From an uncultured Prevotella sp. (GTDB taxonomy: Bacteria > Bacteroidota > Bacteroidia > Bacteroidales > Bacteroidaceae), in assembly GCA_947165435.1 (NCBI GenBank), contig CAMVAI010000001.1:1-64000 (forward strand): a stretch of 64,000 nucleotides of DNA. The letters are read 5' to 3'. The notes under the pieces are model-generated. The model saw only the letters and a program-made list of their open reading frames with translations. It searched no databases and was not told the origin of the DNA. This document shows positions 233 to 23,901 of this stretch, one piece after another. The position numbers and the translations under genes were made by a program. Within the stretch, counting starts at the first letter, position 1; each line of letters begins with the position of its first letter.

Positions 233-2620
233 TCAGAAGCTGACGGCCAGCGTTCCCATGAGGGTGCGTCCGCGCTGGTATTGCGGGTACATATTGAAGG
301 CGGGGCCGGTGATGAACCGCGTGGTGTTGGTCACGTTCTCGCAGTCTGCCGACAGCTGCAGCCAGCTGTTGTAGGTGTACTTCATGCCGAGGTCGATGAC
401 AAACTGGGGCTTGAGTTCATCGCCTTTTTCTATCCATTGACCGTAGAGTTCCAAGTCGTTGTACATGAATATCTTCTTGCCCGTGAAGTTGGCGTTGCCG
501 TACAGCTTCAGCTGGTGGCGGCGTGTGTCGATGGCCTTCCACGCCATGTTCAGGTTGGCGGTGAAGTGGGGCACGGCAGCCACTTTCCGCTCGTCTTCCA
601 GGTAGTAGTACGACTCGGCCTTGATGTCCTTGCACCAGTAGAGCGTCAGCCCGCCCGACAGCCGCTTGTAGCTGTAGGAAGCCGTAGCCTCAATGCCCCA
701 ATTCTCGTAGTGCCCCTCGTTCATGACTTTCATTTCGCTGAAGTTAGTGTATTCGAATCGGTACAGATTCTGGAACTTGTTGTAGAACACGTTCAGCTCG
801 TAGTTGAGGTGGAGCGGCATGATGCGGCCCATCACCGAATACTGGATGGCGGTGAGGTATTGCGGCAGGTAGCTTTGCTCGTCGTTGAAAGAGGACGTGC
901 TTCGGTAGGAGAGCGCCATGTCCACAAACGACTTCGAGTAGCCCAGTTTCATGCTGAACCGCTCGGAGGGCATGTAGATGAGTGCCAGACGCGGCGAGAA
1001 GGCCTTCAGCCTTTCGCCGTCGTAGCGGTACTTGATGTCGTAGCGCGCTCCGGCATTGACGATGAAGTGCTTGCTGAACATGTGCTTGGCCTGACCGTAG
1101 AACGACAGGCTGCTCTCATGGTCGAAATCGCCCGCTATGTCTTCGAACTTTGAGACGCGGGTAATCTGGTCGTAGCTTTCGCCATCTTGTGAATATACAT
1201 CGTTCGCCTTGCAGTACTCGTACTGTGTTCCCAGTAGCAGGTTGCCGCTCATGCCGCCCAGTTTGTAGTCGGTGCTGGCCCTGACGTTGCCCCCCATGGT
1301 GTGCTCCTGCAGGCTGGTCATGCTGAATATACCGTAGGAATACCAGCGGTCTTCGGGGTCGGGCTTCAGCTCGTTGGCCAAGTTCTCGCCGCCTTCGGTT
1401 TCGTAATAGTTCACCTTGTACCAGTCGCTATAGATGGATGCCGACAGGTTGACGGGGCCCAGCTGGTGGGTATAGTTGGCTTCGAGCAGTGTCGCCGTGA
1501 CGCCATAGCCCGGCTTTTGTCCGTCTATGTTTCTGTAGCGGTGGTAGTCGTAGTAGCCAAAGTCGTTGTATTGCGGCACCTTCTTGCCGCTTTTGCGGCT
1601 GAAGTAGAGGTTGAGGCCCTTGTATCGGAAGGTCATGCCGAGGTCGTAGCTGGGCTTGTCGCGATAGGCATCGACGATGGCTCCGAAGCGCGAGTCTGGC
1701 ACAATGTAGAATTGGTTCAAATACTCTTCGGAGTCGCGGCACGCCCGCAACTCGCCGTCCGACTTGTATATCGATGCCCACAGCAGCACGTCGGCATCCA
1801 TGAACCGTTTGCCGGCGGTCAGTTCGGCCTTGATGGTCTTGTGGCTGCCGTAGCCCGCCTGCACCTTGACGCCGTCTTGGTCGGCACCGTCCTTGGTGAT
1901 GATGTTCACCACAGCCGAGAGGGCCACATTGCCGTAGAGCGACGAGGCCGGTCCGCGCAGCACCTCGATATGGTCTATCTTCGATAGGGACAGGTCGTAG
2001 CCCATCGAGCACGAGTTGGTGGTCCGCATGTTCAGCCGGTGTCCGTTCTCCATGACGAGTATGAGCTCCTGCTCTTCGGCGTAGGCGCCGTGCATGGCGA
2101 TGTTGTCGCTGTAGAACGACTGTATCTCGGCCATGCCCGGCACGTAGGTGGCCAGAATCTGGTTCAGGTTTCTGTTGTTGCCCAGGTTTTCTATCATTTC
2201 TGCGGTGATGATGGTCACCGGCACGGGGGCCTCGTGAATGCTCTCCGACACGCTGGAGGCCGTGGTCACTTTCTGCGTCAGGCCCGACTTGATGCGCGCC
2301 ACCATGTCCTGAAAGCGTATGGGGTCATCGACGTTGGTATAGTAGTTGTTCTGCTCTATCAGCTGGCGGGCATACTGCTCGGCCTGCTTGTCCTCGTCTT
2401 GCGCCAGCGCACAGAGTGCCAGCAGGCGTAGTGCTTTCTGGCGGTCGTTGCCGTCGAGCGCACCCAGCGTTCTGGAAAGACTGGCCTGTGCCGCCTCGAA
2501 GCGCCCCAGACGGTAGTCCTCTTCTGCCTGCCCCAGCAGCTCGGTGTGGTTGACGGTCTGCGCACAGAGCGTGCCGATGCCGGCCATGAGCAATAGAATG
2601 AAAAGATGTAGTGTTCTCAT
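233..2620 (-). CDS. TonB-dependent receptor with N-terminal TPR-like extension
   Basis: Signal peptide, TPR-like helices, plug motif (SESIHEAPVPVTIITAEMIENLG...VLRGPASSLYGNVALSAVVNIIT), beta-barrel, C-terminal aromatic (LAVSF). Confidence 0.9.
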   Translation of the reverse strand: MRTLHLFILLLMAGIGTLCAQTVNHTELLGQAEEDYRLGRFEAAQASLSRTLGALDGNDRQKALRLLALCALAQDEDKQAEQYARQLIEQNNYYTNVDDPIRFQDMVARIKSGLTQKVTTASSVSESIHEAPVPVTIITAEMIENLGNNRNLNQILATYVPGMAEIQSFYSDNIAMHGAYAEEQELILVMENGHRLNMRTTNSCSMGYDLSLSKIDHIEVLRGPASSLYGNVALSAVVNIITKDGADQDGVKVQAGYGSHKTIKAELTAGKRFMDADVLLWASIYKSDGELRACRDSEEYLNQFYIVPDSRFGAIVDAYRDKPSYDLGMTFRYKGLNLYFSRKSGKKVPQYNDFGYYDYHRYRNIDGQKPGYGVTATLLEANYTHQLGPVNLSASIYSDWYKVNYYETEGGENLANELKPDPEDRWYSYGIFSMTSLQEHTMGGNVRASTDYKLGGMSGNLLLGTQYEYCKANDVYSQDGESYDQITRVSKFEDIAGDFDHESSLSFYGQAKHMFSKHFIVNAGARYDIKYRYDGERLKAFSPRLALIYMPSERFSMKLGYSKSFVDMALSYRSTSSFNDEQSYLPQYLTAIQYSVMGRIMPLHLNYELNVFYNKFQNLYRFEYTNFSEMKVMNEGHYENWGIEATASYSYKRLSGGLTLYWCKDIKAESYYYLEDERKVAAVPHFTANLNMAWKAIDTRRHQLKLYGNANFTGKKIFMYNDLELYGQWIEKGDELKPQFVIDLGMKYTYNSWLQLSADCENVTNTTRFITGPAFNMYPQYQRGRTLMGTLAVSF

Positions 2621-3438
2621 TGCTTTTGGATGGGGAAAGTCATGGTGAAGCAGGTGCCTTCGCCGGCCTGCGTCTCAAAGGTCAGCCGGCCGTGGTGCTT
2701 GTTCTCGATGATGTCGCGGGTGATGGCCATGCCCAGTCCGGTGCCTTGGCCTACGGGCTTGGTGGTGAAGAAGTTGTCGTAGAGCCGCTGGCTCACCTCG
2801 TCGGTCATGCCCTCGCCGTTGTCGGCAATGCGTACCACGATGTCGCTGCCCTGCTGGCTCACGCTCACGTCGATGCGCGGCGTGTAGCCCTCGGGCTGCT
2901 GCTGCGACTTGTGCCACAGCGTGTAGTAGGCATTGTTCATCAGGTTCAGCACGGCCCGGCTGATGTCTTGCGGCACCACCACGGCCTTGGCGGTGTCGGC
3001 GTAGTCCTCGTGGATGCTGGCGTTGAACCCCTTGTGGCTGGCACGCATGGCATGGTACGACAGCCACACATACTCGTGGACGATGGCGGCGATGTCGGCA
3101 GCGACGAACTCGTCTTCCCTGCCGCGCGACACCAGCAAGATGCCCTGTATGATGCTGATGGCACGCTCGCCGTGTTCCACGATTTTCGCCAGGTTCTCTT
3201 TCAGGTCATCGACTATCTCGCCCACTTCGTCGCTGTCCTCTTGGGGCATGCGCTCTCGGTTGTCGTCAACGATGTCGGTCAGGTCGTCGAGCAGCTTCGA
3301 CGACATCTTGCTGAAATTGATGACGAAGTTCAGCGGGTTCTGTATCTCGTGGGCTATTCCGGCACTCAGCATGCCCAGCGAGGCCAGCTTCTCCTGCTCT
3401 TTCAGTTGCTGTTGCAGCGTTTCTACTTGTTCTGTCAT
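2617..3438 (-). CDS. Soluble sensor-less histidine kinase (HisKA/HATPase_c) with N-terminal coiled coil
   Basis: H-box GIAHEIQNPLNFV, N-box LMNNAYYTL, G boxes DNGEGM and GTGLGMA. Start MTEQVETLQQQL placed at 3438; the longer ORF 2617..4305 is an out-of-frame extension through the upstream gene. Confidence 0.88.
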   Translation of the reverse strand: MTEQVETLQQQLKEQEKLASLGMLSAGIAHEIQNPLNFVINFSKMSSKLLDDLTDIVDDNRERMPQEDSDEVGEIVDDLKENLAKIVEHGERAISIIQGILLVSRGREDEFVAADIAAIVHEYVWLSYHAMRASHKGFNASIHEDYADTAKAVVVPQDISRAVLNLMNNAYYTLWHKSQQQPEGYTPRIDVSVSQQGSDIVVRIADNGEGMTDEVSQRLYDNFFTTKPVGQGTGLGMAITRDIIENKHHGRLTFETQAGEGTCFTMTFPIQKQ

Positions 3439-6248
3439 AGCTTCGGTGAATGAGGTAGTGTAATGGTAAACTCGGTATAGACGTTCTTCTCTGAATCGAC
3501 GGTGATGTCGCCGCCGTGGTCCTGTATGATTTCCTTGCTCAGATATAGGCCTACGCCCGATGCTTCGCTCGTGGTCTTGGTGGTGAAGAAGGGGTCGAAG
3601 ACCTTGTCGATGATGGTATGCTCGATGCCTATTCCGTTGTCGCGGATGCGTATCTCGGCGGTGGGCCCGCTGTACCTTATGCTCACGTTGACCTCGGGGT
3701 GATAGGCCTCGTGTTGCTCGGTCTTGCGGATGTGTTGTTTGCGCACGGCATAGACGGCGTTGGCCAGCAGGCTCATGAAGGTCTTGCTCAGCTGTTCGCC
3801 GTTGCCCTCGACAGGCACCGCGTCGGCCCCGTAGCTGAAGGTCACCTGGATGTGGTGCTCGCTGATTTCCCGCTCGTAGTAGGTGTGGACCATCTTCTCG
3901 TTCTGCCTCAGCAAGATGACGAGGTCTATCTGTGTCTTGCCGCCGGAGCGGTCTTTGAGCATCTCTTCCATGGCTTTCAGCGTGCGCGTGGTGTTGGCGC
4001 CGTGCTCGCCGACCTTTGCCAGGTTGCCTTTCAGCATGTCGAGCACGTCGAGGGTGTCCTCGTAGTTCTCGGGGTCCATGCGGTCTTTTTCGTCTTCCAC
4101 GTTGGCCCGCACGTCTTTCACCAGCCCTTCCGACAGCTTGGAAAAGTTGTTGATGTAGTTCAGCGGGTTCAGGATGCGGTCTATCAGGCCCTGCGTCAGT
4201 TTGGCCACGGTGGCCACCTTCTCCAGTTTCACCACCTCGGCGGTGCGCTCCTTGACGATGCGCTCCAGTCGCATCTTTTCGTGCTCCAGCCGGTTGAGGC
4301 GCCACTTGACGAGGACGAGGATGAGGGCCGTGGCGATGAGCACATAGAGCACTAACATGTACCAGCGGAGGTAGAGCGGCGGGTCGATGGTGAAGCGGAT
4401 GCCGACAACGTCGGACAGCCGTCCGTAGGCATCGCGCGCCTGTACCTCAAAATAGTACGTGCCGTAGCTCTGGTGGTTGTACTCCTCGTAGGTGTTGGTG
4501 TCCCATGCGCTCCAATAGCCGCCGTTCATGCGTGTGCGGTACTGTGTGCGCAGCAGCAGTGACGGGTATGCTACCGAGAAGTTGAACTGGATGTGCCGCT
4601 CGTCGCTCGACAGGCTGGGCAGTTTGGCAGGCTGCCGGCCGCTGCCGCCCCACAGTATGCTGTCGCCGCGCAGCAGGATGGAGCGGATGTAGAGCTGGGG
4701 CTTCACCTGCGTCATGATGTCTTTGTGGGTATAGTCCACCACGTTGAGCCCACGGTCGCCGCCCATCCAGAGCTGGCGCTTGTCGCGGAGCATGGCACGT
4801 GTGGAGAAATCCATTAGCGGATATACCAGCTGCGAGAGGGTATGCTGGCGTATGTGGTTGTCGAAGGCATACAGCGACTTCCCCTTGTTGTTGGTGAGCC
4901 AGCTGATGCCGTCTTCGTCGGTATAGGAATACTGGGGATAGGGGAACGGGCGGGTGGCACTGGCCGTGATGACGTTGACATGGCCGTTGGACATGACTAT
5001 CGTGGCCGGCTCGCGGTGGGTATCGACGGGCTGGAAGCGGGTGCCGTCGCCTTTCCATACGTAGCCGTAGATGTTCTGAAGCCAGAGCGTGCCGTTGGCA
5101 TCGCGCAGGATCTTGGTGACGCGCTCGGCTTCGCATACCTTCTGTTCTTGGCCGTCGTAGGGATGGTAGTAGAAGCCGTCCATCTCGCCGGTGTAGTAGC
5201 CGTCCTTGGCATCGGTGACGGCTGTCGTGCTGGCGGTGGTCAGCTGGCGCGTGCCTTGCTGGCCGACGAGATAGACACCGTTGGTGGTGGCTGCCAGGAG
5301 GCGGTCGGCCGTGGGGGTCAGGCACCAGCAGGCATGGCTGATGTCGGCCACCTGACGGAACGTCTGCCCCTCCAGCCGGTACAGGCCGTTCAGCGTGCCG
5401 GCATAGATGGTGCCGTTGAACTTGGCCAGCGAGAGCACCTCGCCGTGCAGCCCCTCGCTTTGCGTGAAGTGTGTGTAGGCGGTAGGCAGCGCGATGGCGA
5501 AGATGCCGTTGTCGGTGGCTCCCCAGAGCAGTCCGTTGCCATTATACGACACGTGGCTCACGTTGTTGGAGCACAGCCCGTTGGCCTCGTTGATGTGCAT
5601 GAGCGGTTGACCGTTCTTGTGGCGCACCAGCAGTCCGTTGCCGTTGGTGGCCACCACCTCGGTGTTGTCGTCTATCGTCTGTATCTGGTTGATGTGCTGT
5701 CCGCTGCCAAGCACCGACCAGCCGCTGGTGGGCACCTGGCCGTTGGGCTGCACTTGGATGTTGTCGCCGGTGATGTCGTAAACCTTGCCGTCGCTCACCA
5801 GAAACGACACCCGGCCGTCGCGCTCCCATATCCATGTCACCTCGCCGCGGATGTTGGTGCCGTTGCCTGTCGGATGCAGGGCGAGGATTCCGCGTGAACC
5901 GGTCTTGAGGTAGCCCATGAAGTTGTAGCCACCGGTCCAGATGCGCCCCTTCGAGTCGCGGAAGAGTGCCGTGACGCGGCTGTTGCCCGGGGTGTGAATC
6001 ATGCGCCATGTGGACTGGTCGTAATACAGCAGGCCTTCGAAGTTGGCTACATACACCAGGCCCTCGTCGCCGCAGATGATGTCGAAGTTCTGGTTGTGGC
6101 CGTTATACTCGGTGGCTTTATAGTTGCGGATGAAGGGCATGCCCTGTGCGCTGAGGCGTAGGGGAGTCAGGACGAGAAGGGCAAACAGGCCGGCAAGCAG
6201 GATGCCTGTCGCCTTCGTTGTCGTGCTATGTCGTGTCCCGGTAGTCAT
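3435..6248 (-). CDS. Two-component-regulator-propeller / Y_Y_Y domain membrane sensor with degenerate histidine kinase core (pseudo-kinase by H-box)
   Basis: Signal peptide MTTGTRHSTTTKATGILLAGLFALLVL; propeller repeats (GLVYVANFEGLLYYD, GRIWTGGYN, GLLWGATDNGIFAI); Y_Y_Y-type region; TM LYVLIATALILVLV; HATPase_c boxes NAVYAV, DNGIGIE, GVGLYLSKEII. No REC or HTH domain. Confidence 0.85.
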   Translation of the reverse strand: MTTGTRHSTTTKATGILLAGLFALLVLTPLRLSAQGMPFIRNYKATEYNGHNQNFDIICGDEGLVYVANFEGLLYYDQSTWRMIHTPGNSRVTALFRDSKGRIWTGGYNFMGYLKTGSRGILALHPTGNGTNIRGEVTWIWERDGRVSFLVSDGKVYDITGDNIQVQPNGQVPTSGWSVLGSGQHINQIQTIDDNTEVVATNGNGLLVRHKNGQPLMHINEANGLCSNNVSHVSYNGNGLLWGATDNGIFAIALPTAYTHFTQSEGLHGEVLSLAKFNGTIYAGTLNGLYRLEGQTFRQVADISHACWCLTPTADRLLAATTNGVYLVGQQGTRQLTTASTTAVTDAKDGYYTGEMDGFYYHPYDGQEQKVCEAERVTKILRDANGTLWLQNIYGYVWKGDGTRFQPVDTHREPATIVMSNGHVNVITASATRPFPYPQYSYTDEDGISWLTNNKGKSLYAFDNHIRQHTLSQLVYPLMDFSTRAMLRDKRQLWMGGDRGLNVVDYTHKDIMTQVKPQLYIRSILLRGDSILWGGSGRQPAKLPSLSSDERHIQFNFSVAYPSLLLRTQYRTRMNGGYWSAWDTNTYEEYNHQSYGTYYFEVQARDAYGRLSDVVGIRFTIDPPLYLRWYMLVLYVLIATALILVLVKWRLNRLEHEKMRLERIVKERTAEVVKLEKVATVAKLTQGLIDRILNPLNYINNFSKLSEGLVKDVRANVEDEKDRMDPENYEDTLDVLDMLKGNLAKVGEHGANTTRTLKAMEEMLKDRSGGKTQIDLVILLRQNEKMVHTYYEREISEHHIQVTFSYGADAVPVEGNGEQLSKTFMSLLANAVYAVRKQHIRKTEQHEAYHPEVNVSIRYSGPTAEIRIRDNGIGIEHTIIDKVFDPFFTTKTTSEASGVGLYLSKEIIQDHGGDITVDSEKNVYTEFTITLPHSPKL

Positions 6249-6295: not shown

Positions 6296-7849
6296 TTACT
6301 TCGTGAAGGTTTCGTACGGTATGTTGCGCCCTATGTAGTAGCTCCACTCGTCGTGCGTCAGGTTGCGCTTCAGCTGTTTCTGGAGCTTGCTGGTCATGAG
6401 CGGCACCGAGATGAAGGCCTCGGTGAGGGTGCCTTTCTGGTCGCCGCACCAGAGGTTATGCTTCTTTTCGTCGAAGGTGAAGCAGCGCAGCCAGCCGTTC
6501 GTGCGGATGATGGACATGGGCTCTATCTTCTCCTTGTTCGACATCCACAGATTCACCGTGCCGTCGTAGCTGGCAGAGTAGATGCGCGCACCGTTGATCT
6601 TGATGCGCGACACACGCGACCGATGGCCCAGCAGCTTCTGCATCTTGCCTTGGGCATCCTCCATCCAGATGGTGCCGTCGGCCATGCCGTAGGTCTTCAC
6701 ATGTGTGTTCTTCGAACTGGCGAAGGCTGTCACCTGGCCGCTGACCGGTACTCGCTGGACGGGGATGTCGTCTATACTGTTCAGGCGTAGCATCTGGCGG
6801 TGGTCGTCGAAGAGCAGCGGTCTGCCGTCGAACAGGCTGATGGCCATGATCTTGTGTGACAGTCGGCGTGTCTTGTCGGGATGCCAGCTGTGGGGCGTCA
6901 GCTGTGTCAGGCCCTCCTCGCCTATGACGATGAATTGGCCTCCCACGGGTTCGATGCCCATCAGGCGACCGATGCCTTCGACAGTCCGTATGGTGGTTCG
7001 CCCGTCCTTGCGTATCAGCAGGTGGCCCGTGCGGCTGACGGCGAAGAGCGTGCCGGAGGGATGGTCAATGAAGAGGTCGCGGAAGTCGAAGCTCTTGTTG
7101 GCATACAGGGTGTCGGTCAAGAGCTGTTGCTTGCTGTCAAACCGGTGGGCCAGCAGTTCGCCATACGTGCTGGTGGACGCGAGGTTGTATGGGCCTTTCT
7201 TGAAAAAGGCAATGTCGGTGACGGTGCCTTGGTGGCGCGTCCACTGGTGCTTGCTCTGACTGGTCATGACCAGTGCCTGATAGACAGAGGGGGTATAGAT
7301 GTCGCCGCCATAGCGCTTGGTGTACTGATAGGCGGCGTAGGCCAGCAGATTGGCCAGTACGATATTGCCATCATGATATTGGGTGATGGCGTAGTTGCCT
7401 ATCTGGCGCGACAGGGTGAGATAGCTCAGCGTGTCGGCAACACGCTTCGAATGCTCGGCGGCGGCACGCTGGTCTTCGGCTATCCGGCGCTGGCTCTCGG
7501 CTGTTTGCGAGGCTTGTACGGCACGGTGCTCGGCTTCCAGGGCGTTCTGCCGCTCCTGCTCGGCATGCTGGCGCATGCGCTCGGCCACGACGGTCTGTCT
7601 TTCTGCTGCCTCGCGCTGCTCGTCGCTGATGCGGCGCTCCTGGAGGGCTATCTCCTCCATCTGGGCATTGACGCTCTGCATGACGGCCGACTGCTTCTCC
7701 TGCCGCTCAAGGTCTTTCACTTGCGTCTGCAGGCTTTCTACCTGTCTGCTCTTCTCGTCGTACTTGTGGTACAGATGGTAGAGGGCTGCAGACAGTCCGA
7801 CGATAGCCGTTGAGACCAATATTCCGAATAGTATGTTCCGCGTCCGCAT
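6296..7849 (-). CDS. Membrane-anchored coiled-coil WD40-like repeat protein
   Basis: N-terminal TM (ILFGILVSTAIVGLSAAL), long Glu/Arg/Gln coiled coil, C-terminal WD-type repeats (HRSRVSRIKINGARIYSASYDGTVNLW) and tail LTHDEWSYYIG. Confidence 0.7.
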   Translation of the reverse strand: MRTRNILFGILVSTAIVGLSAALYHLYHKYDEKSRQVESLQTQVKDLERQEKQSAVMQSVNAQMEEIALQERRISDEQREAAERQTVVAERMRQHAEQERQNALEAEHRAVQASQTAESQRRIAEDQRAAAEHSKRVADTLSYLTLSRQIGNYAITQYHDGNIVLANLLAYAAYQYTKRYGGDIYTPSVYQALVMTSQSKHQWTRHQGTVTDIAFFKKGPYNLASTSTYGELLAHRFDSKQQLLTDTLYANKSFDFRDLFIDHPSGTLFAVSRTGHLLIRKDGRTTIRTVEGIGRLMGIEPVGGQFIVIGEEGLTQLTPHSWHPDKTRRLSHKIMAISLFDGRPLLFDDHRQMLRLNSIDDIPVQRVPVSGQVTAFASSKNTHVKTYGMADGTIWMEDAQGKMQKLLGHRSRVSRIKINGARIYSASYDGTVNLWMSNKEKIEPMSIIRTNGWLRCFTFDEKKHNLWCGDQKGTLTEAFISVPLMTSKLQKQLKRNLTHDEWSYYIGRNIPYETFTK

Positions 7850-7851: not shown

Positions 7852-7925
7852 TATATACTGATGCTTCTTTCTTATGCTCTGCGCTTCATATATACTGATG
7901 CTTCTTTCTTATGCTCTGCGCTTCA
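7852..7925. repeat. Perfect 37-bp tandem duplication spanning the 3' end of the REC-PP2C gene
   Basis: TATATACTGATGCTTCTTTCTTATGCTCTGCGCTTCA at 7852-7888 and again at 7889-7925, identical. Confidence 0.95.
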
Positions 7926-9078
7926 AGGCCATGATGGTGATGTCGTCGCTTTGGGGGGCCGAGCCGGCAAAGGCTCGAACGTCGGCCAGCTGTGCGTCGA
8001 TGATTTCCTGGCATGTCTTGTCATACACCGTGCCCAGGACGTGCTCCATACGGGACTCGCCGTATTCCTCGAAATCGGTATTGAAGGCTTCGTTCACGCC
8101 GTCGGTGTACAGTAGCAGCGTGTCGCCGGGGGCCAGGTGTGCCTCACCGTCGCTGTACGTCATGTCGGGCATGATGCCCAGAACGCAGTTGGTGCTTTGG
8201 GGCAGTTGCTCCACACGCCCGTTGGCACGCAGGATATAGGGCGCGTTGTGGCCTCCGTTGCAGTAGGTCAGCTGACCGGTGGAGATGGTGTAGATGGCAT
8301 AGAACACGGTGACGAACATCTGGTCAACCGACTCCCTGCACAGCAGCTCGTTCGACAGGGTCAGCGTGCTGCCGGCAGTGTCGCCCTGCAGGCCTACGGT
8401 ACGTATCAGCGTGCGGCTGACGGCCATGAAGATGGCGGCAGGAACACCCTTGCCGCTGACGTCGGCCATGACGAGGCCGATGTGGTCGGCATCGATTCGG
8501 AAGAAGTCGTAGAAGTCGCCGCCGACATCCTTGGCAGGGGTCATCAGCGCAGCCAGGTCGAGCTGTGACTCGTTCTCGGGGAATGGGGGGAAGATGCGGG
8601 GCAGGATGGCATGCTGTATCTCCGACGCCACGGCCAGGTCGGTCTTCAGCGACTCCAGCTGGCTGTGCTCTTCCTGGGCTTGCTTGATGTATTCTATTTG
8701 CTTGATGGCCTTCTCGATGGTTACGCTGAGGTCTTCCAGGTCGATGGGCTTCGTGGCAAAGTCGAAGGCACCGCCGTTCATGGCCTGGCGGATGTTGCTC
8801 ATGTCGCCATAGGCACTCACCATGATGCACTTCAAGGATGGATTCTGCATCTCGTTCACCTTGGCGAGCAGCGTCAGACCGTCCATTTCAGGCATGTTGA
8901 TGTCTGACAGGATGATGTCGAAGTCTTTCTCCTTCAACAGCATGGTAAGTGCCTCCAAACCGTTGTGGGCAAAGTGGAATTCGTATTCGCCCTTGCGGAT
9001 TTTGCGGCGGAAAAACTGTGTCAGAAGCGACTCGAGGTCTGCCTCGTCATCGACACTGAGTATCTTTGCTGGTTTCAT
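7909..9078 (-). CDS. Response regulator (REC) fused to SpoIIE/RsbU-type PP2C phosphatase
   Basis: REC: KILSVDDEADLESLL...DIILSDINMPEMDG...TKPID; PP2C: MTPAKDVGGDFYDFFRID...VMADVSGKGVPAAIFMA...YCNGGHNAPYI...DDITIMALKRR. Confidence 0.92.
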   Translation of the reverse strand: MKPAKILSVDDEADLESLLTQFFRRKIRKGEYEFHFAHNGLEALTMLLKEKDFDIILSDINMPEMDGLTLLAKVNEMQNPSLKCIMVSAYGDMSNIRQAMNGGAFDFATKPIDLEDLSVTIEKAIKQIEYIKQAQEEHSQLESLKTDLAVASEIQHAILPRIFPPFPENESQLDLAALMTPAKDVGGDFYDFFRIDADHIGLVMADVSGKGVPAAIFMAVSRTLIRTVGLQGDTAGSTLTLSNELLCRESVDQMFVTVFYAIYTISTGQLTYCNGGHNAPYILRANGRVEQLPQSTNCVLGIMPDMTYSDGEAHLAPGDTLLLYTDGVNEAFNTDFEEYGESRMEHVLGTVYDKTCQEIIDAQLADVRAFAGSAPQSDDITIMALKRRA

Positions 9079-9216: not shown

Positions 9217-12177
<2,961 letters not shown>

Positions 12178-15100
12178 CTATTGTACTTTCAGTTCTTTAA
12201 ACTCGATGGCATCGGTGGCAATGTGTAGGCGGTAGGTGCCGGCATTGATCTGCGTACCGGTGGTGGTGGAGAGCATCTTGAATTTCGGTGGCGTGGGCGG
12301 GAATGTCACGTCGCGGTCAACGAGCACGATGTTCTTGGCATCGGTGATGGTCATGCGCGCGGTGACGGGCTGGCCCGTCGTGTTCTTGTAACGGAAACGG
12401 AGGGCGTATTCCTGACCGAGGCCGGGGGTGATGACGAAGGTGGTGCCAGAAGGGGAGCCTTTTGGAGCAGCTGACTGCTTCTTTCCTTTGCTGGCCTGTT
12501 TTCCGTTAATAGGCTGATAGACGGTGGCGGGGCGCGCCTCGGTGTCCTGGGGCAATTCTGCTTTGGGCAGCTTGGCAATGGTGTCGGTGTCCAGGGCGTG
12601 CCAGTCGATGGCATCCTGCTGCACTTGCGGCCACTCTGGAACAATCGCTCTGGCAACCGCTACGGCAATGCCACAGATGACGGCCTGGCCGGCCTTCACT
12701 TCGGGGAAGGCGATGCGCAGGCGTCCGTTCTGGGCCTTGGCATATACCACGCGCTTCAGGGCTCCGCAGTAGCCGGCTTCTGCCCACGGGTCGAGGTCGT
12801 CGATGACGGTCTGCCCGTTGACGGCCACGTCGAAGATGCGCAGACCTTCGTAGTCGGCGGTCTCTGAGGCTTCACGGCCGTGCCACGGTTCAGTGAAGTA
12901 GAGCTCGATGCGGTAGAGGGTGGTGTCAGCGGATGAACCGCTGACCGCTGTGACTGGCAGGTCGTACCACAGACGGTGGCGACCGAAGCGGAAGCGCTGG
13001 AAAAGTTCGTCGCTCTGTGTGCCGCGAATGTCGGCGGTGATGTGGCGCTGCGAGGCCTGCAGGGCATGGATGCCAGGGAAGTCCTGACCCCATGAGTGGC
13101 TATGCAGGGTGTCGTCGGCCTGCCACTGTTGGCCGAACTCATCGCGGAAGGCATCGCCGCCGCAGTTGATGCGGTAGAGGTAGTGGTAGCCGGGGGCGGC
13201 TTTCACGAGGTCACGGTTGCGGTCGGCAGCGGTGGGGAGGGCGGTTGCGGTGGGGAGGGCGCCCGACGATGAATCGTCGGAAACGGGGGCAGCGTAGCGG
13301 TGGCGGTACATATAGTAGGCTGGGGTAGGCTCTTCCCAGGCAGTGACGAGACCCTTGTAGTTGATGGGACCTATCTTGTCGATGCGGCGCAGGGCACCGT
13401 CGGGCTGGATGCGTCCGGGGTTGTCGTGAGAATTGAAGATCCATTGGAAATGGCCGCAAACGCCGTGGTGGCCCGATGGGAAACCATCGGATACAGCGGC
13501 ATGGGGCACGGTATCGGCGAAAGCCTTCTCGGCCAGACGGGCCTTGGTTTCAAGTAGGTGGGTGAACGACTCCTCGCTGTATTTCGCGTCGCCGTGCAGG
13601 TCGATGGTGCGCCAGGCACCGTATTCACCGTTCAACAGCTGCTCGGGCTGCGAGAGCTCGCGGTCGTAGTTGTCGGCCGTGCCGCCGTAGGTGCCGCTCC
13701 AGTTCTGGATGACGTTCCAGTCGGTGCCCTCGCCGCCGTTGCAGGTGGTGATGGCACGCTGGTCACGGCAGGTGGGGTCGAGACTGCGGATGATGTCGGA
13801 ACACTCCTCGGCGAAGGCCTTGGGCAGCACACTCTCGTTCTGCAGTCCCCAGAGGATGATGCTGGGTGAGTTGCGGCGTTCCTTGATCCAGCGTATGAGC
13901 AGCCGTTTGAAGTTGTCGCGGAACTGTGGCGTGTCGTACCAGATGTGTGCCGAGAACTGGCTCCAGAAGAGCACGCCCTGCTCGTCGCATAGCTGTTGGT
14001 AGAGCAGGTTGTGGGGCTGGTGGGCCTCGCGCAGGGCATTGAAACCGGCATTGGTAATCTGCTTCATGCGCGAGCGAATCTGCTCGGGCGAGAAGGCATG
14101 GCTATTGCCAAGGAGGTGTTCATATTCGCAGGTGCCGTTGATAAATACGGGCGTGCCGTTGAGGCAGAAGCGGTGGTCGCCGTCTTTGCGGTGGACGGGC
14201 CACGAGATGCTTCGGATGCCGAAGGGCGTGCGCACCTCGTCGGTGGTGACCGTACCGGTGGCAAAACCATTGGACACACTGGATGCGGCCGGAGTGGTAG
14301 CAGATGCGGAAGATGCGGTAGATGCGGCCGGGCGTTTAATCATGGTGGAGAGGGTGTAGAGGTAGGGGTCACCGATGCTCCATCGGTGGGCATTGCTGAC
14401 AGCCTCGGCATGGCGGAGCGTGCGGGTCTCGCCGGGCTGGAGCGTGACGGGCTGTACATGGCGGAACACCTGCTTGCCCGAGGCCAGCGTAAACTTGTTC
14501 ACCAACTCAATCTGCTGGGGATGGTTGGTGTAGTTCTTCACCTCGGTGTCAATGAATACGGAGTCGCAGGCGGCATTGTTCCAGATGTGGACACCGAACG
14601 GCTCGATGCGCACTGCGTCGGTCTCGATGAGGCTGACGGGCCGGAAGATGCCGAAGGGCTGCGAGCCTTCGCTGAATCCCCACTCCGACGAGCATCCGCC
14701 ACAGACCCACGGCGAGGCCGTCTGCATGGCGGGGTGGTCCACAGCGACGGTCAGCGTGTTCTGGCCGCTGTGTAGGTGGTCGGTGACATCGAGCGTCCAT
14801 ACCGTGCGGCCTACCAGCTCTTTGGGATAGCGGTGGCCGTTGAGCGTGACGGTGGCGTAGGTGCCGACACCCTCGAACTGGAGGAAGTAGCGGCGCCCCT
14901 CGCGCTTGTCGCTGTCGAATGTCTTGCTATATATTGCCGAGCCGTGGAGATTGCCATGGCGGAGCTGGCGGTAGCCGTAGTAGTCGTCGAAATTATGGGG
15001 GAGGTTGATGGTTGTAGCGATAAAATCGCTACCAATTGACGAAGGCTGCGAGACGTGAGAGGCAATAGATGAAGGCTGCGAGCTGTGAGGGGCAAGGCAG

Positions 15101-16329
15101 CGGGCCGTCCAGCCCTCGTTGAGGGGCGTGACGGTGCGGCGGCCTTTGCGCTCGGGGGCGGGAAAGCGCACGGCAGAGCGGCCCATGGGGACGCTGGTGG
15201 CTACGGCGATGCCGCGCTGCTGGTCGTTGTTGACGGCGCAGTAGAAATGATACACCACGCCGTCGTGCTTCACCACGTAGCTCTTGTGGGCAAACAGCTC
15301 GTCGTAGGGCTTAGAGGGGATGATGAGGTCGGGACCGTCCCAGTCTTGCCAGTGGATGAGGTCGCGCGAGACGGCGAAGGTGTTGTAGGCGGCATACTTT
15401 CGGGCGGGGTTGTAGGCCGAGAAGTAGAACATGACGTAGAGAGCCTCCCCCCTGCCCCCTCCCAAAGAGGGGATGTTCATGCGCACTATCTGGGCATCGC
15501 CGGTGATGGTGCCGTCGCTGTCGTGGGCGAAGACGGGATTGCCGCTGTAGCGTCGCCAGTGCTTCATGTCGTTGGAGAGGGCGATGCCGATGCGCTCGCC
15601 CTTGGGGTGGGTGCTGTCCTTGCCACCGGCATTGTAGAACATGAGGAAGCGGTACTTCTGCAGTTCGGGCGGCAGTAAATGATTCGCTTTCCCCGTTCCG
15701 CTGTTCACTTCGTAGATGGTGCTCTTGTACTGCGTCATGTATTCCCACCACTGGGCGTCCTTGTCGTTGTAGCTCATGAGCGGACGGTCCTGCGTCTGCC
15801 ACTGGTGCGCCTTTGTGACATCCCCCTTGGTCGAGGCGATGCCGATGCTCAGCGGTGCATTCACGGCCTCATAGCCTGTGCCGGGTCCGCCAATATAGGT
15901 CATGTAGTAGCGACCTTTATAGGTTCCGATGTCATAACTGCCGCCCCATTCGTAGTCGATGAGTGCCGGGAAACCGCCCCGCTGGTTCTGGTCCCAGAGG
16001 TTGGCACCGTCGGCGGGATAGGCCAGCAGGCGCCCCTCGGTCTGCCAGTGCAGCAGGTCGTCGCTCGTCGCCAGCCATGTCTCGTAGCCGCGCCCGTCGG
16101 TGCCGTCCTTGCCGTTATATACCACGTAGGTCATCAGCCACCGTCCGTCTTTGCGGAACACGGTGGGACAGTCTATCTTATGGTAGTTGTCTGTTGGAGC
16201 CACCACCATTCCGTATTTATAGGGTGTGCGCACCTCCTGGTAGATGCGCCGCATCTGCTGTTCGCTGATGTTTTGTGCCGTGACGGCGAGGCTGACGAAA
16301 ACAAATAGCGCGGTCAGTTTTATTTTCAT
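12178..16329 (-). CDS. Multimodular CAZyme: N-terminal GH43/GH137-like beta-propeller, GH2 module, malectin-like C-terminal domain
   Basis: N-term APTDNYHKIDCPTVFRKDGRWLMTYVVYNG...GIALSNDMKHWRRYSGNPVF; GH2 NLPHNFDDYYG...FLQFEGVGTYATVTLNGH...REAHQPHNLLYQQLCDEQGVLFWSQ...SIILWGLQNES; malectin-like YRINCGGDAFRDEFGQQWQADD. Confidence 0.8.
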   Translation of the reverse strand: MKIKLTALFVFVSLAVTAQNISEQQMRRIYQEVRTPYKYGMVVAPTDNYHKIDCPTVFRKDGRWLMTYVVYNGKDGTDGRGYETWLATSDDLLHWQTEGRLLAYPADGANLWDQNQRGGFPALIDYEWGGSYDIGTYKGRYYMTYIGGPGTGYEAVNAPLSIGIASTKGDVTKAHQWQTQDRPLMSYNDKDAQWWEYMTQYKSTIYEVNSGTGKANHLLPPELQKYRFLMFYNAGGKDSTHPKGERIGIALSNDMKHWRRYSGNPVFAHDSDGTITGDAQIVRMNIPSLGGGRGEALYVMFYFSAYNPARKYAAYNTFAVSRDLIHWQDWDGPDLIIPSKPYDELFAHKSYVVKHDGVVYHFYCAVNNDQQRGIAVATSVPMGRSAVRFPAPERKGRRTVTPLNEGWTARCLAPHSSQPSSIASHVSQPSSIGSDFIATTINLPHNFDDYYGYRQLRHGNLHGSAIYSKTFDSDKREGRRYFLQFEGVGTYATVTLNGHRYPKELVGRTVWTLDVTDHLHSGQNTLTVAVDHPAMQTASPWVCGGCSSEWGFSEGSQPFGIFRPVSLIETDAVRIEPFGVHIWNNAACDSVFIDTEVKNYTNHPQQIELVNKFTLASGKQVFRHVQPVTLQPGETRTLRHAEAVSNAHRWSIGDPYLYTLSTMIKRPAASTASSASATTPAASSVSNGFATGTVTTDEVRTPFGIRSISWPVHRKDGDHRFCLNGTPVFINGTCEYEHLLGNSHAFSPEQIRSRMKQITNAGFNALREAHQPHNLLYQQLCDEQGVLFWSQFSAHIWYDTPQFRDNFKRLLIRWIKERRNSPSIILWGLQNESVLPKAFAEECSDIIRSLDPTCRDQRAITTCNGGEGTDWNVIQNWSGTYGGTADNYDRELSQPEQLLNGEYGAWRTIDLHGDAKYSEESFTHLLETKARLAEKAFADTVPHAAVSDGFPSGHHGVCGHFQWIFNSHDNPGRIQPDGALRRIDKIGPINYKGLVTAWEEPTPAYYMYRHRYAAPVSDDSSSGALPTATALPTAADRNRDLVKAAPGYHYLYRINCGGDAFRDEFGQQWQADDTLHSHSWGQDFPGIHALQASQRHITADIRGTQSDELFQRFRFGRHRLWYDLPVTAVSGSSADTTLYRIELYFTEPWHGREASETADYEGLRIFDVAVNGQTVIDDLDPWAEAGYCGALKRVVYAKAQNGRLRIAFPEVKAGQAVICGIAVAVARAIVPEWPQVQQDAIDWHALDTDTIAKLPKAELPQDTEARPATVYQPINGKQASKGKKQSAAPKGSPSGTTFVITPGLGQEYALRFRYKNTTGQPVTARMTITDAKNIVLVDRDVTFPPTPPKFKMLSTTTGTQINAGTYRLHIATDAIEFKELKVQ
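14255..14287. repeat. Hairpin element (family 2, diverged copy) inside the propeller-GH2 gene
   Basis: CCGGTGG CAAAA CCATTGG then ACACACTGGATGCGG; encodes ASSVSNGFATG. Confidence 0.5.
15014..15041. repeat. Hairpin element (family 2, diverged copy) inside the propeller-GH2 gene
   Basis: GTAGCGAT AAA ATCGCTAC, 8-bp perfect stem; encodes SSIGSDFIAT. Confidence 0.55.
15444..15472. repeat. GC-rich palindromic element (family 1) in frame within the propeller domain
   Basis: CCTCCCCCCTG CCCCTC CCAAA GAGGGG; encodes the extra peptide NIPSLGGGRGEA. Confidence 0.65.
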
Positions 16330-16352
16330 CGTTTATTATTGTTTTATTATTT

Positions 16353-19196
16353 TTATTTTTGGAACAGCCAGTCAACCTCGCCCGACGGACCGTTGAGTCC
16401 GCAGTCGCGCGGCTTGATGTCGCTGGTGGTGAAACCGGCCACCATCAGGATGCCCTTGGGCAGGCGTAGCGTCTGGCGACCGGCGGGGAGCGTGTATTGA
16501 TGGATATTCACTTTTGGCATCTGTACGATGCTGATGGCATTGGTCAGTAGCGGCTCGGCCTGGCCGTACTCATTGCCCGTGGCATCAATCTCCAATTTGG
16601 GAGCCTTGGCCCATTTCGGGTCGTCGTCTTTGAACAGGCCGACGAGCAGCTTGACGGGCGTGTCGCTCTCATACTCGATGGTGGTGCCTATGATGCGGGT
16701 GGTGTCGCGGTTGAGCACGAGGGCCTGCAGGTTGGCGAGCTCCGGGGCGATGGAGTCAACGGGGGTGTCGGGGCGGTTCTCGAAGAGGATGGCACCCTTC
16801 TTCAGCGTTTGAAGTTTGAAGTTTGAAGTTTGAAGTTTATGAATTGTTACTTCGGCGGGCTGGGCGGGCAGGATCTTGACATCGGCGAGGGCTGCGGGGT
16901 GCTTCAGCTTCTCGATGTTGGCGCGGAAGGCATCCAGCTCTTCCTGATAGACGGTGGCCAGCTCCGACCATGTCTTCATCTTGCCACCGTCGCCGCCTAC
17001 GGGGATACGGCGCTGGGCCGTCTGCATGCTGTTGGCATAGAGATACCAGTCGTCGGTCATGCGGCTAAGGTCATACCAGATGCTCAGGCTCTGTTCGAGC
17101 CATACGACGGCTGTCTCCAGGTGGGCGATGTCCTGTGTCCACTTGTAGCGTAGCACCTCGGCGGCAGCACGCACCTTCAGCTGGAAGGCTTTGGCGAACG
17201 AGGCATAGCAAAGCATGTCGTTCCACACGCGCTGGTATTCGTCGGCATGGCGGGTGGGCTTGGCGGCAGCGGCTCCCATTTCGACCAGCGCACGGTCGCC
17301 GTGGTTGACACACTGGTCGATGATGTCGAGCGGCAGTTCGCCCTGATGGGGCAAACCCTTGTGCTCTTTCTCGATATACTCGATGAGCTTTTCGCCCTCC
17401 GGGCCGCAGCTCTCGTAGAAGCCGGGGTAGATGGTGTACTTATACGGATTGACCAGTTCGCCCATGGTCATGCCGAGAAGTAGCGTCTGGCGGTTGCCCT
17501 CGGTGATGCCGAAGCGGCGCAGCAGCTTGGGGGCTATCTCGCCGGCCTCGTCGTAGGCGTTGAGCAGATGGCCGGCGGCGATGGTGTCGATGCCGTAGTA
17601 ATCGGCCAGCACGCGCTGCCAGTAGGAACGCTCGGTGGCAGCGGCAAAACCGCTGCCCACAGTGGAGGCGGAAGGACCGCTGCCCACAGTGGAGGCGAGA
17701 GGACCGCTGCCCACAGTGGAGGCGGGGGACATGGAGCCGGTGCGGTCGTTCCAGGCGTAGCGCCCCCAGGCCTGATACCACATCCAGTCGCGGTCGAGCT
17801 GCTTCAGGCGCTGACCGTCGGGCAGCTTGTCGGCGGTGTAAGGCCAGTCCCAGTAGGAGGCTTGGGGGTAGAGGTGCAGTCCTCGGGAGTGGTGTACGCG
17901 GTGCATGGCCTGGACGGTCTTCTGGATGAAGGCAGGACTGGACCAGCGCCACGGTTCCAGATTGGCGAGGATGTGTACGTTGTCGATATGCACGGGAGCG
18001 GCAGCAGCCAGCTGGCGGTGGGTCTCGCCCCAAGGCCCTCCGGGGGTATAGGTGGTCAGGCTCTCGCCCGTGTACTTCGACATCGTATATATATTAGGAT
18101 AGAGCGGCAGGCTCTCCTTCAGCACCAGCGGCCCGTCGGTATCATGCGAGCGCAGCACGATGGGTGGCAGTTTACCCCCTCCTGTCCCCCCCCTGGGGGA
18201 GGCTTTCTGCGCGTCGGCTCCCCTCCCTACTGGGGAGGGGGTGGGGGTGGGGCTGCCCAGTCCGTCCTTGATACCGGGAATGATGGTCTCCTTCATCCAT
18301 TTCACGTCGTCGTCGATGGTGGCCATTGCCTCGCCGAGACATACCAGCAGGCCGACGTTGGGGTAGTTCTTGATGAAGGCTGCTATCGACTTGCGGGTGT
18401 AGTCGCTGATGAGCGGGGTGATGGGGCGGTGGCGGTCTTGCGTCTTCAGACCATAGTGGTCGGCAAAGGGCTTGCTCAGGATGATGTTATAGAACATCTG
18501 GATGACCCAGATGCCGCGACGGTCGGCCTCGTGGGTAAGGAATGAGAACATGTCCACGTTCTTCTGGAACGTCGCCTCGTCCACCTCCAGGGCGAAGGGA
18601 TAGTCCTTCAGCTTGACGAGCGAAGCGAAGGGGTGGCCGTTCCAGAGATACAGCGAGTTGTACTTGTTCTCGACCATCATGTCGAGGTATTTCACCCACT
18701 CCGCCTTGTCATAGAACCAGGGGAAGTTCTCAGGAGTATAGGGATACTCATAGACCCCATGACCGGGCAGATAGACCGTCTTCTGCAGTCCGATACATGT
18801 GCCACGCATCACCATCTGCGGCTGTTCCGTGATGGATTGTTGAAGCCCTGTCGCAGCGAAATGCTCAATGCTGCCAGCCTGCCGGATGCGGTCGGCCAGC
18901 TCCACGCATCCGTAGATGACCCCCGTGGCATCGTTGCCGCTCACGGTGATGCCCTGCTTGCCCTTGGCGATGGTGTAGCCCTCGGCAGGTCCGTTGCCCG
19001 CCACCGACAGCGTAATCTTGTAGTCGGCTTTTTTCTGGGCAACATGATGCCCCATCTCTGTCAACTTCTTCTGCAGATATTCTGCTGCATATTGTTCACG
19101 TGCCGAAGCATGTCTTTCTACTACAATGCTGATGCTCTTGGCCGTTGCCGTTACAGCCATAGAGACCATGATAACGATGGCGATAATCTTCTTCAT
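16353..19196 (-). CDS. Alpha-glucuronidase-like glycoside hydrolase (GH67/GH115/GH20-type N-terminal domain plus barrel)
   Basis: ITVSGNDATGVIYGCVELADRIR N-terminal domain; barrel motifs YLDMMVENKYNSLYLWNGHPF, LVCLGEAM, PIVLRSHDTDGP, HILANLEPWRWSSP, YPQASYWDWPYT. Confidence 0.6.
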   Translation of the reverse strand: MKKIIAIVIMVSMAVTATAKSISIVVERHASAREQYAAEYLQKKLTEMGHHVAQKKADYKITLSVAGNGPAEGYTIAKGKQGITVSGNDATGVIYGCVELADRIRQAGSIEHFAATGLQQSITEQPQMVMRGTCIGLQKTVYLPGHGVYEYPYTPENFPWFYDKAEWVKYLDMMVENKYNSLYLWNGHPFASLVKLKDYPFALEVDEATFQKNVDMFSFLTHEADRRGIWVIQMFYNIILSKPFADHYGLKTQDRHRPITPLISDYTRKSIAAFIKNYPNVGLLVCLGEAMATIDDDVKWMKETIIPGIKDGLGSPTPTPSPVGRGADAQKASPRGGTGGGKLPPIVLRSHDTDGPLVLKESLPLYPNIYTMSKYTGESLTTYTPGGPWGETHRQLAAAAPVHIDNVHILANLEPWRWSSPAFIQKTVQAMHRVHHSRGLHLYPQASYWDWPYTADKLPDGQRLKQLDRDWMWYQAWGRYAWNDRTGSMSPASTVGSGPLASTVGSGPSASTVGSGFAAATERSYWQRVLADYYGIDTIAAGHLLNAYDEAGEIAPKLLRRFGITEGNRQTLLLGMTMGELVNPYKYTIYPGFYESCGPEGEKLIEYIEKEHKGLPHQGELPLDIIDQCVNHGDRALVEMGAAAAKPTRHADEYQRVWNDMLCYASFAKAFQLKVRAAAEVLRYKWTQDIAHLETAVVWLEQSLSIWYDLSRMTDDWYLYANSMQTAQRRIPVGGDGGKMKTWSELATVYQEELDAFRANIEKLKHPAALADVKILPAQPAEVTIHKLQTSNFKLQTLKKGAILFENRPDTPVDSIAPELANLQALVLNRDTTRIIGTTIEYESDTPVKLLVGLFKDDDPKWAKAPKLEIDATGNEYGQAEPLLTNAISIVQMPKVNIHQYTLPAGRQTLRLPKGILMVAGFTTSDIKPRDCGLNGPSGEVDWLFQK
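17637..17724. repeat. Family 2 hairpin plus three 27-bp tandem units, in frame in the alpha-glucuronidase-like gene
   Basis: GGCAGCGG CAAAA CCGCTGCC hairpin 17637-17657; ACCGCTGCCCACAGTGGAGGCG at 17649, 17676 and 17703; encodes (ASTVGSGxx)3. Confidence 0.85.
18175..18250. repeat. Inverted pair of family 1 palindromic elements (BIME-like) in frame
   Basis: CCCCCTCCTGTCCCCCCCCTGGGGGAGG followed by CTCCCCTCCCTACTGGGGAGGGGGTGGGGG; encodes SPTPTPSPVGRGADAQKASPRGGTGGGKL. Confidence 0.75.
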
Positions 19197-19439
19197 AATA
19201 TTATGCAGTATCTATATTATATAGATAATGACTGACGAAAAGGCAAAATGTCATCATACCCAATGGTCATCATGTAGTAGGGTGGGCAGATATTTTTTTC
19301 TACGAAAATCATCATTGTTAGCTCTTTTCCTACAAAACAGTGCGGACTGTTAGAGGAATAATGTGTATTTTTGCAGCTGATACGGGGAAATCCGTTTTTT
19401 GGGGTGCTATCCTTTCCAAAAAAACTGCATAATACTGGA

Positions 19440-19643
19440 TATGCAGGCGGCAAGGAGCTTACCGTGTACAATGCCTATTACCTCGATTTCCAGAGTAAGT
19501 GGACGGAATACTATCCGCAGATCGCTGTCGGAGACGATGTGCTCGTTTATGGCAGGGTGGTCAATTATCATGGCACCGCGCCAGAATTTGCTGACAGGAA
19601 ATGTTACGTTATTCCGCTTCCGGTTCCTCAATATGGGAAATGA
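19440..19643 (+). pseudogene. Orphan C-terminal fragment of an exported OB-fold-type domain protein
   Basis: GGKELTVYNAYYLDFQSKWTEYYPQIAVGDDVLVYGRVVNYHGTAPEFADRKCYVI resembles the VYGKLxNYxGTPEFA OB-fold-like domain; no signal peptide or upstream domain remains. Confidence 0.45.
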
Positions 19644-19677
19644 GGTGAGATAATGGCACTGACCCTGACCGCTTGCG

Positions 19678-22600
19678 CTATAGCTTAGCAGGGTCGATTT
19701 CCTTGTAGGCTATGCGCAGGCGGCGCCAAGTGTAGGCGACATGCAGCTTGCCATCGCGGCCCTGTATGATGCAGGGGTAGGAATATTGGCTGATGGGCGA
19801 GTCTTCGAGTGTCAAGGCGTGGCGCCAGTGAGTACCGTCGTCGCTGACGGCGAGGGAGAGGGGGGTGCGCACCCCCTTTTTGGTGGCGGGCAGCGTCTCG
19901 AAGTTGTTATAGACGAGCACATGACGACCGTCGCTGAGGGTGACGGCATCGGTGCCCGACTGGTTGTTGGGCACATCGAGCAGGGTGACCTTCGACCATG
20001 TGTCGCCGTTGTCAGAGGAGAAAGAGGTGCCTATCTTTCCGTTGCGGGTGCGCATGAGCACCTGTAGGCGGCCGTCGTTCAGCTTGAGGATGGAGGGCTG
20101 GATGCAGTCGATGGGGTGCATGCCGTTGGCAGCGGCGGTGCCGCCGGCATCGGGGGCTTCGGGGTCTTCGCTTTTGGCAGCGGCAAAACCGCTGCCCACA
20201 CTGGAGGCGGGGGAAGCGGAAGAGGCGGGGGAAGCCTTCATGTCCTCGGTGCGCATGGCGAGGGAGGCGGCGATGGGGCCGACGTAGCGCCATTGCTTTT
20301 TGGCAATGTCGTAGATTTCCATGTGGAACTTCCAGCCGTTGTCTTCCGTGCTGGAGGGACAGAGCAGACGGCCATTGATGATTTCGGGCTTGTTCTTGAT
20401 GGGGCCGAGGAAGCCCTTGGGCAGGGGTTCCTTGTTGCTCCAGGTCTTGCCGCCGTCCTTTGATTTGCAGAGCCAGCCTGTCCAGTCGCTGACCTTCAGT
20501 CCTATCTTGAAGAACAGCCACAGCTCGCCGTTGGGCATCTCGCAGATGACAGGATTCCAGCAGGCCTTGCGACGCTGGTTGGTCGAGGCGAGGCCTCGGC
20601 ATACAGGACCGTCTGAGGCGGGGGTGCTCTCGGCGGTAATGCCGGCGATGTTGCCATTGGTGGTGCCGAGCTCGAAGACACCGTCGGCGGCGAGGATGGG
20701 GGCCGTCCATGTGTTGCTGCCTTTCTTCTTGATGCTCACCCAGATGCAGACGTCGGGGTTGCGCTCATGCTTGCCGCCGAAGTAGGTGCAGACAAGGTCG
20801 CCCTTCTTCGTCTCGACGATGCTGGCCGAGTGGCACTGTGGGAAGGAGGCCTGGGTGTAGAGGAATTCGTCCTTCACGATGGCTTCTGAGGCGGTAGGCA
20901 TGTCGCAGGAGAAGTCGTAGGTGCCCGAGCCGATGTTTTTTACTGTTCCGTCGGGCAGGTGGACGTCGGCTGTCGTGTTGCAGGGGATGATGACGTGCCA
21001 GTTGATGTGGCACTGTGAACGACTGGTGCTCACCGTCGTTTTTCTCCATTCGCTATGGATGATTCCGTAGGGGGAATGGAAGATGGCCTTTGCGCTTTCG
21101 CAACCCTGGATGCCGAAGTCGGGACGAAGCACAATGTGCTTGTAAGCCGTAGCCCCCGAAGTCCCCGAAGCCCCCCCTACGGCCCCCGAGGGGGCTTCAT
21201 GTGCCAATGCACCGGGCTTGCCAGCATTTACAGTCCCTTCGGGGGCTGAAGAGTGGAATTCGGCTTGGCGGATGCCGCCAAGATACTGGTAGCACCAGGT
21301 GAGCAGGTCGCCGAGCAGCATGACGTGGTTGCCGCTGTTCATGCGGGGACTGGCCTTGTCGCCGTTCCATAGTTCCCACGTCGTGGTGGCACCGTTCTCT
21401 GCCATGTAGCCCCATGAGGGGTAGCTCTTCTGCGTGGCTATCATGTAGGCGATGTCGCTGAAGCCGTTGTCGCTGAGACCGCGCAGCAGCCATGATATGC
21501 CGATGACACCACATGGCACGTGGGCGTTGTTCTTGATGATGATGTTTTCCACCACGTTCTTTACCACCTCTTCGCGGCAGTCATCCGGCACGATGCCGAA
21601 CGAGAGTGCTAGGAGGTTGGCCGTGGCGGTGTTGTTGCCATAAAAGACGCTGTCGGGATAGAGCACATGACCCGGGCGGGGCGACGTGCCGCGACGGACG
21701 GTCAGGAAGTGGCGGTTGAAACTGGCGGTCATCTGTTCGCGGAGGGGTCGCCATAGGTCGGCCTCGCAGCCCCACTGTTCCATGAGCTGCATGGTGCGGA
21801 TGATGTATGCCGTGGAGATGAGCGACACGTCGGTCTTGCGTGCCGGGTCCTGCGAGTGGATGAGCTCCAGTTTCTCGGGTGGCACGCACCAGTCGCCATA
21901 CTTGCCGCAGCGGATGATGCCGTCGTCGCTGTACTCCTCGATGATATGATTGACCCACTTCTTGATATAGGGATAGGAGCGGTCGATGGCCTCGCGGTTG
22001 CCGAACTGCCGCCACAGCATGTCGCAGCCGAAGGGCAGGGCAGCAGCCCAAGTGACGTCGTCGCTGTAGTAGTTCCAGAAGGCCGGTGCCACATCGGGTA
22101 TGCAGCCGTCGGAGCGCTGTGCCTCGCAGATGTCGCGCATCCACTTGGTGTAGAGCCGCTCGTTCTGTGCCACGAAGCTCTCGCCGAGACTGCCCACGGT
22201 GCGGTCGCCCAGCCAGGGCTGTCGCTCGTCGCGCTGCGGGCAATCGACGGGCATGCCTTTGTAGTTGGCGGCAATACCCATACAGGCATTCCGCACCACC
22301 TTATTTAATATAGTGTCGCTGCAGCTGAAACTATTCGGATAGACGGCAATGCCGTCATACACCTCCTCGGCTACGAGCTGGCGGGCGTCGAGGTCTTTCA
22401 TGCCCGACACCTCGACGTAGCGGAATCCGTGATAGACAAACGTCGGTCGCCAGGCGCGGTCTTTGTCCCATTCTTTGACAACAGGCTCCTGCCCGTTGCA
22501 GACATAGGTGTCAGTAGAGCGGGCGTTACGCAGGTTTTCCGTATAGAGCGTGCCGTCAGCGTTCAGCTTCTCGGCATAGCGCACGCGGATGGTGTCGCCT

Positions 22601-23850: not shown

Positions 23851-23901
23851 CTTTATATATTGCTGTGTTTTATTACAATCTATTGTGTTTTATTACTATC
23901 T

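Follow-up and report, generated by a model that had tools for sequence, protein, structure and literature searches.

The window, i.e., the whole stretch of 64,000 nucleotides analyzed here, carries an operon of five genes on its minus strand. In order, these genes encode a response regulator composed of a REC and a SpoIIE/PP2C phosphatase domain (REC-PP2C, 7909..9078), a membrane-anchored coiled-coil protein with a seven-bladed WD40-like propeller (6296..7849), a sensor built like a histidine kinase (3435..6248), a soluble, sensorless histidine kinase of 273 amino acids (2617..3438), and a TonB-dependent outer-membrane receptor with an N-terminal TPR-like segment (233..2620). The ATG of the soluble kinase overlaps the stop codon of the sensor gene (ATGA), and the start of the receptor gene overlaps the stop of the kinase gene in the same manner (ATGA). 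This gene order is conserved in 35 loci. It is possible that the receptor has a signaling role as well. The coiled coil of the second gene product gives a weak TolA-like match, and a tandem direct repeat of 37 nt, the copies of which are 92% identical, is located at 7845-7918 between the REC-PP2C and WD genes.

The sensor gene is an intact open reading frame of 937 residues with its ATG at position 6248. Based on the translation, Pfam matches, hydrophobicity, an AlphaFold2 model and a PDB fold search, its product consists of a signal peptide, a periplasmic beta-propeller with Y_Y_Y domain, one transmembrane helix, a DHp and a CA domain. In the sensor half, Reg_prop scored above and Y_Y_Y below the Pfam cut-off, and the top PDB fold match of this half was the periplasmic domain of BT4663 (E 5.5e-28), a hybrid two-component system (HTCS) protein of Bacteroides, with which the sensor shares this periplasmic organization. 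In the AlphaFold2 model, built with 11 homologs, the transmembrane helix is followed by two long helices of the DHp domain (676-719 and 726-768), and the CA domain, as in kinases of the HisKA family, matches HATPase_c (Pfam E 5.7e-20). In contrast to the HTCS, however, the sensor possesses neither an acceptor His nor a REC or AraC-type HTH domain, for both of which Pfam gave no match, its reading frame ends after the CA domain, and its output apparently proceeds to a separate kinase and to REC-PP2C. In place of the acceptor His and the Glu next to it, the sensor carries Asp690 (GAC, 4181-4179) and Arg691 (CGC, 4178-4176), together 4176..4181 on the minus strand. The DHp helix of the sensor reads LTQGLIDRILNPLNYINNFSKLS, that of the overlapping small kinase at the same place LSAGIAHEIQNPLNFVINFSKMS, and Asp690-Arg691 aligns with His30-Glu31 of the latter (His30 encoded by CAC, 3351-3349). 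An acceptor His followed by an acidic residue, as found in orthodox members of the HisKA family, is absent from the sensor, and Pfam found HisKA in the small kinase only and HATPase_c in both proteins. Both the exchange of His-Glu for Asp-Arg and the intact reading frame devoid of REC and HTH domains had been proposed in the sequence-only reading and were confirmed.

In 11 Prevotella loci of the genome collection, the same sensor is encoded with an invariant Asp-Arg (DR) dipeptide, which is likewise present in all 57 sensors examined at the genus level, down to about 40% identity. After addition of family- and order-level relatives as well as matches of a degenerate DNA pattern for the motif, 310 transmitter domains were available, 159 with DR and 151 with His-Glu (HE) and none with any other dipeptide; once identical sequences were removed, 99 DR-type domains remained, with Asp-Arg throughout, together with 119 related kinase domains, with His-Glu throughout. 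The degenerate pattern matched 5 of 396 genomes across the phylum and 11 of 294 across the order, while a reversed control pattern yielded no match in the same scans. Together with the conservation in 99 out of 99 domains, this indicates that the dipeptide is not a product of chance. A single match of the phylum scan (L192) had no kinase in its vicinity and was regarded as accidental. The sequence-only reading had suggested examining the D-R state in homologs across Bacteroidales, and it proved to be kept in every homolog found, in several families of this order and outside of it. Since this applies to all homologs, Asp-Arg is neither a sequencing error nor the result of decay in a single genome, and the sensor belongs to an ancient family in Bacteroidota that has lost the phospho-acceptor His. 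Internal TGA stops in the matches from four genomes were only apparent, as these matches had crossed the end of the sensor gene into the overlapping kinase gene.

In a tree of 189 non-redundant domains, all 87 DR domains were separated from all 102 HE domains with a support of 0.988, and this split persisted when the H-box was masked (0.786) or when the CA domain only was used (0.806). The tree is unrooted; given that histidine kinases as a rule carry His-Glu, it is most simply explained by one replacement of His-Glu by Asp-Arg.

The soluble kinase has almost nothing in front of its DHp domain, which begins at about residue 14; it contains no transmembrane segment, and its HATPase_c domain has complete canonical boxes. 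An adjoining soluble HE kinase was present in 52 of the 65 DR loci with enough flanking DNA, or in 53 when L002 is counted, whereas such a companion was found beside none of 25 HE sensors, i.e., His-bearing kinases with a sensor of their own. The corresponding Fisher p of about 1.6e-13 assumes independent loci and is only indicative, because the loci are related and were collected with a DR query. The soluble kinase of L002 (9739-10584 of that locus) lacks about 27 DHp residues directly after HEI, due either to a real deletion or to an assembly error.

Across 80 Prevotella genomes, 94 DR sites and 77 kinases were counted, with 76 of the sites adjoining a soluble His-bearing kinase. Sensor and kinase occurred at a ratio of 1:1 in 61 genomes, 2:1 in 14, 1:0 in four and 1:2 in one, the last of these containing a second sensor truncated at a contig start. 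Among the four genomes that show one sensor but no kinase, two are interrupted by contig ends; the other two, G131 and G341, contain the sensor operon without the kinase, none was detected elsewhere in the genome, and one of them is rated 99% complete. Where a second operon copy lacks the kinase, it still includes a WD protein and a TonB receptor of its own, and often also a REC-PP2C; two loci (L132 and L159) each combine two DR sensors with one kinase. The linkage to the small His-bearing kinase, the constancy of which the sequence-only reading had suggested checking, is therefore strong, though not without exceptions, G131 and G341 being without detectable partner. As most exceptions are second copies with a kinase elsewhere in the genome, they still fit signaling through a partner. 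The partnership of sensor and soluble kinase is usual, not universal.

REC-PP2C is likely to be the output of the system. Its Asp59 and Lys110 and the acidic residues of its PP2C domain are invariant in 65 aligned sequences, and outside of Bacteroidaceae the core of the operon consists of sensor, kinase and REC-PP2C (six loci). Four DR sensors outside of this family do not adjoin a soluble kinase. In six other loci, single-protein HE kinases lie beside REC-PP2C, and these look like an unsplit version of the system. Two of these, encoded in L133 and L134, are propeller kinases of 1283-1285 amino acids that have kept His-Glu, adjoin REC-PP2C and have no soluble kinase next to them; they are likely unsplit relatives. 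The source genome also carries genes for STAS and anti-sigma HATPase_c_2 proteins, with two pairs being adjacent, and their products are possible targets of REC-PP2C.

The ATP-binding boxes are retained as stated in the sequence-only reading, apart from two deviations. Among 98-99 homologs, conservation reaches 99-100% for Asn830 of the N-box, for D870-x-G-x-G of the G1 box and for TTK of the F-box, and the G2 glycines G898 and G900 do not vary in DR domains. In 89%, however, Ala takes the place of the first G2 glycine, and the N-box has lost the Arg and the first Asn present in active HE relatives. Judged from these residues, ATP binding by the sensor is plausible. All DR domains share N694, the counterpart of the phosphatase position (His+4) in H-E-x-x-N kinases. 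Within the sensor, mean identity is highest in the DHp domain (75%), followed by the CA domain (54%) and the propeller (43%); although there is no acceptor, the DHp value nearly equals that of the active kinase (78%), whereas the CA domain is less conserved than the one of the partner kinase. When the two sensors of one genome were compared (five genomes), the propeller was the most and the DHp domain the least divergent part. This pattern would be expected if different signals entered through one conserved contact surface. DR transmitters are joined to propellers, TPR arrays, a multi-transmembrane input or only one or two transmembrane helices, all of them without HisKA, and such varied input modules are as expected of putative input subunits.

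With the His lost from the sensor and kept in the adjoining sensorless kinase, sensing and phosphorylation seem to be split between two proteins. We consider it probable that the sensor is a conserved sensory pseudokinase which controls the soluble kinase through the DHp helices, with output via REC-PP2C. According to this model, the propeller would read a periplasmic signal and relay it across the membrane to the DHp helices. As it lacks the usual phosphorylation site, the sensor is proposed to act on the adjacent sensorless kinase, presumably by DHp-DHp contact in a heterodimer or hetero-oligomer. His30 of this kinase would serve as phospho-donor for Asp59 of REC-PP2C, which in turn would dephosphorylate a partner-switching anti-sigma antagonist as the probable output. 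Physical interaction, phosphotransfer and output are what we infer from the fixed residue states, the separation in the tree, gene order, copy numbers and the intact receiver and phosphatase residues, all of which speak for the model and support signaling of the sensor through a soluble partner. Since all genes of an operon co-evolve, however, the conserved order is no proof of contact. Against the model stand the two genomes with sensor and without soluble kinase (G131 and G341) and the DR sensors outside of Bacteroidaceae that are not located beside one; moreover, judging by its complete catalytic boxes, the soluble kinase might act without the sensor.

A catalytic version of the same model, in which pseudokinase and partner form a heterodimer and the ATP-bound CA domain of the former phosphorylates His30 of the latter, can be entertained only tentatively. 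The conserved N-, G1 and F-boxes agree with it, the loss of His and the following Glu affects the reaction on its substrate side only, and a kinase acting on the His of a partner is proven for CheA4, which phosphorylates CheA3 (PMC3591291). The altered G2 box, the missing N-box Arg and first Asn and the lower conservation of the CA domain in comparison to that of the partner, which itself owns a complete one, nevertheless argue against catalysis, as does DivL, which has all boxes and still binds ATP weakly and shows no kinase activity (PMC4211667). Control of a self-phosphorylating kinase by allosteric means is therefore favored over catalysis by the pseudokinase. Also rather doubtful is the farther-reaching idea of ancient, Bacteroidota-wide and catalytically active trans-kinases, with several non-phosphorylatable sensors, two in 14 of the 80 genomes, feeding one shared soluble kinase that would act as a hub integrating membrane inputs on a single phospho-donor.

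The sensor could instead act on the response regulator: independently of the soluble kinase, its DHp helices would bind the REC domain, and the sensor would serve REC-PP2C as a dedicated phosphatase or phospho-sensor. The invariant Asn694 would suit such a role, REC-PP2C accompanies the sensor in kinase-less loci (L056, L204-L206, L238 and L239, the last two from the genomes without any kinase), and DivL is known to bind a phosphorylated regulator (PMC4211667). This reading, however, leaves unexplained that a soluble kinase is found beside DR sensors and, in our sample, never beside HE sensors, and that one kinase is kept in two-sensor genomes; it would also leave this kinase without input, and we regard it as unlikely. 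Phosphorylation of another residue of the pseudokinase, for instance His749 in DHp helix 2 or Asp690 itself, is very improbable. Asp690 is invariant and H749, part of an 'HG' motif, reaches at least 90% conservation among DR domains, but this motif sits in helix 2, away from the catalytic H-box, and is not specific to the DR type, as it also occurs in the HE family. For a degenerate kinase on its way to loss, or a sequencing error, nothing speaks beyond the loss of the His in this genome, and with intact reading frames, Asp-Arg in 99 distinct homologs and the DHp domain as the most conserved region this reading is practically ruled out.

Several systems resemble the proposed pair of pseudokinase and soluble kinase. 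RocA is a streptococcal accessory protein and a pseudokinase that acts with CovR/S; to our knowledge, it has neither an Asp-Arg dipeptide nor a REC-PP2C output. With an acceptor His that is replaced, and a replacement that is conserved in orthologs, the sensor is a candidate member of the functional class of DivL-like sensory pseudo-histidine kinases, which lack autokinase activity. DivL of Caulobacter is likewise a membrane sensor with complete-looking DHp-CA part, in which the acceptor His is replaced in all orthologs and which controls another kinase, and it shows no phosphatase activity either (PMC4211667). The sensor lies outside of the DivL family proper, however, which is characterized by Tyr at the acceptor site and PAS sensors: the DR proteins have Asp at this site and propeller, TPR or transmembrane inputs, His is exchanged together with Glu, and the partner, encoded alongside, is a kinase without sensor, whereas the partner of DivL, CckA, is itself a hybrid kinase. 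CheA3 and CheA4 of Rhodobacter sphaeroides similarly distribute kinase and phospho-acceptor parts over two proteins (PMC3591291), but they are built from chemotaxis CheA domains and CheA3, the acceptor partner, lacks a catalytic domain; the soluble kinase described here is complete, with HATPase_c and canonical boxes. RcsD is also a membrane protein with an inactive kinase domain that works with a related active kinase, RcsC (PMC13317618); in contrast to the sensor, it carries an HPt domain, belongs to a phosphorelay and forms homodimers. A pseudokinase form of ChrS acts on a related kinase, with ChrS-HrrS heterodimers detected by two-hybrid analysis (PMC9491836), but this mutant arose by evolution in the laboratory, its CA domain is broken, and it has neither Asp-Arg dipeptide nor REC-PP2C output. 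DivL, RcsD, RocA, the ChrS mutant and CheA3/CheA4 are thus the nearest systems, and none is the same: they differ in the dipeptide, in the sensorless yet complete partner and in the output through REC-PP2C.

A published description of the DR sensor family was not found in the open-licence literature on Bacteroidetes, Prevotella or SpoIIE, and among the matches listed no NCBIfam model reaches its cut-off for these proteins. Pseudo-histidine kinases known so far are mostly single, lineage-specific cases. Here, a conserved family is found in several families of Bacteroidota, with a fixed Asp-Arg, a usual sensorless His kinase companion, a usual receiver-phosphatase and exchangeable inputs. Labeling DR sensors as histidine kinases on the basis of their ATPase domain would consequently be a mislabel. 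The natural pairs and the genomes with two sensors and one kinase offer a direct test ground for heterodimer signaling and trans-phosphorylation.

A link between the operon and the adjoining carbohydrate-degradation genes was considered and rejected, as no GH2 homolog lies beside the operon in 19 other loci. In the window, these genes occupy 9217..29985 and encode GH2 enzymes, one of them with malectin, a GH20-like domain, an alpha-L-rhamnosidase with BNR, an apiosidase-like enzyme, an alpha-L-arabinofuranosidase and a GH95 enzyme; the cluster looks like one for pectin degradation.
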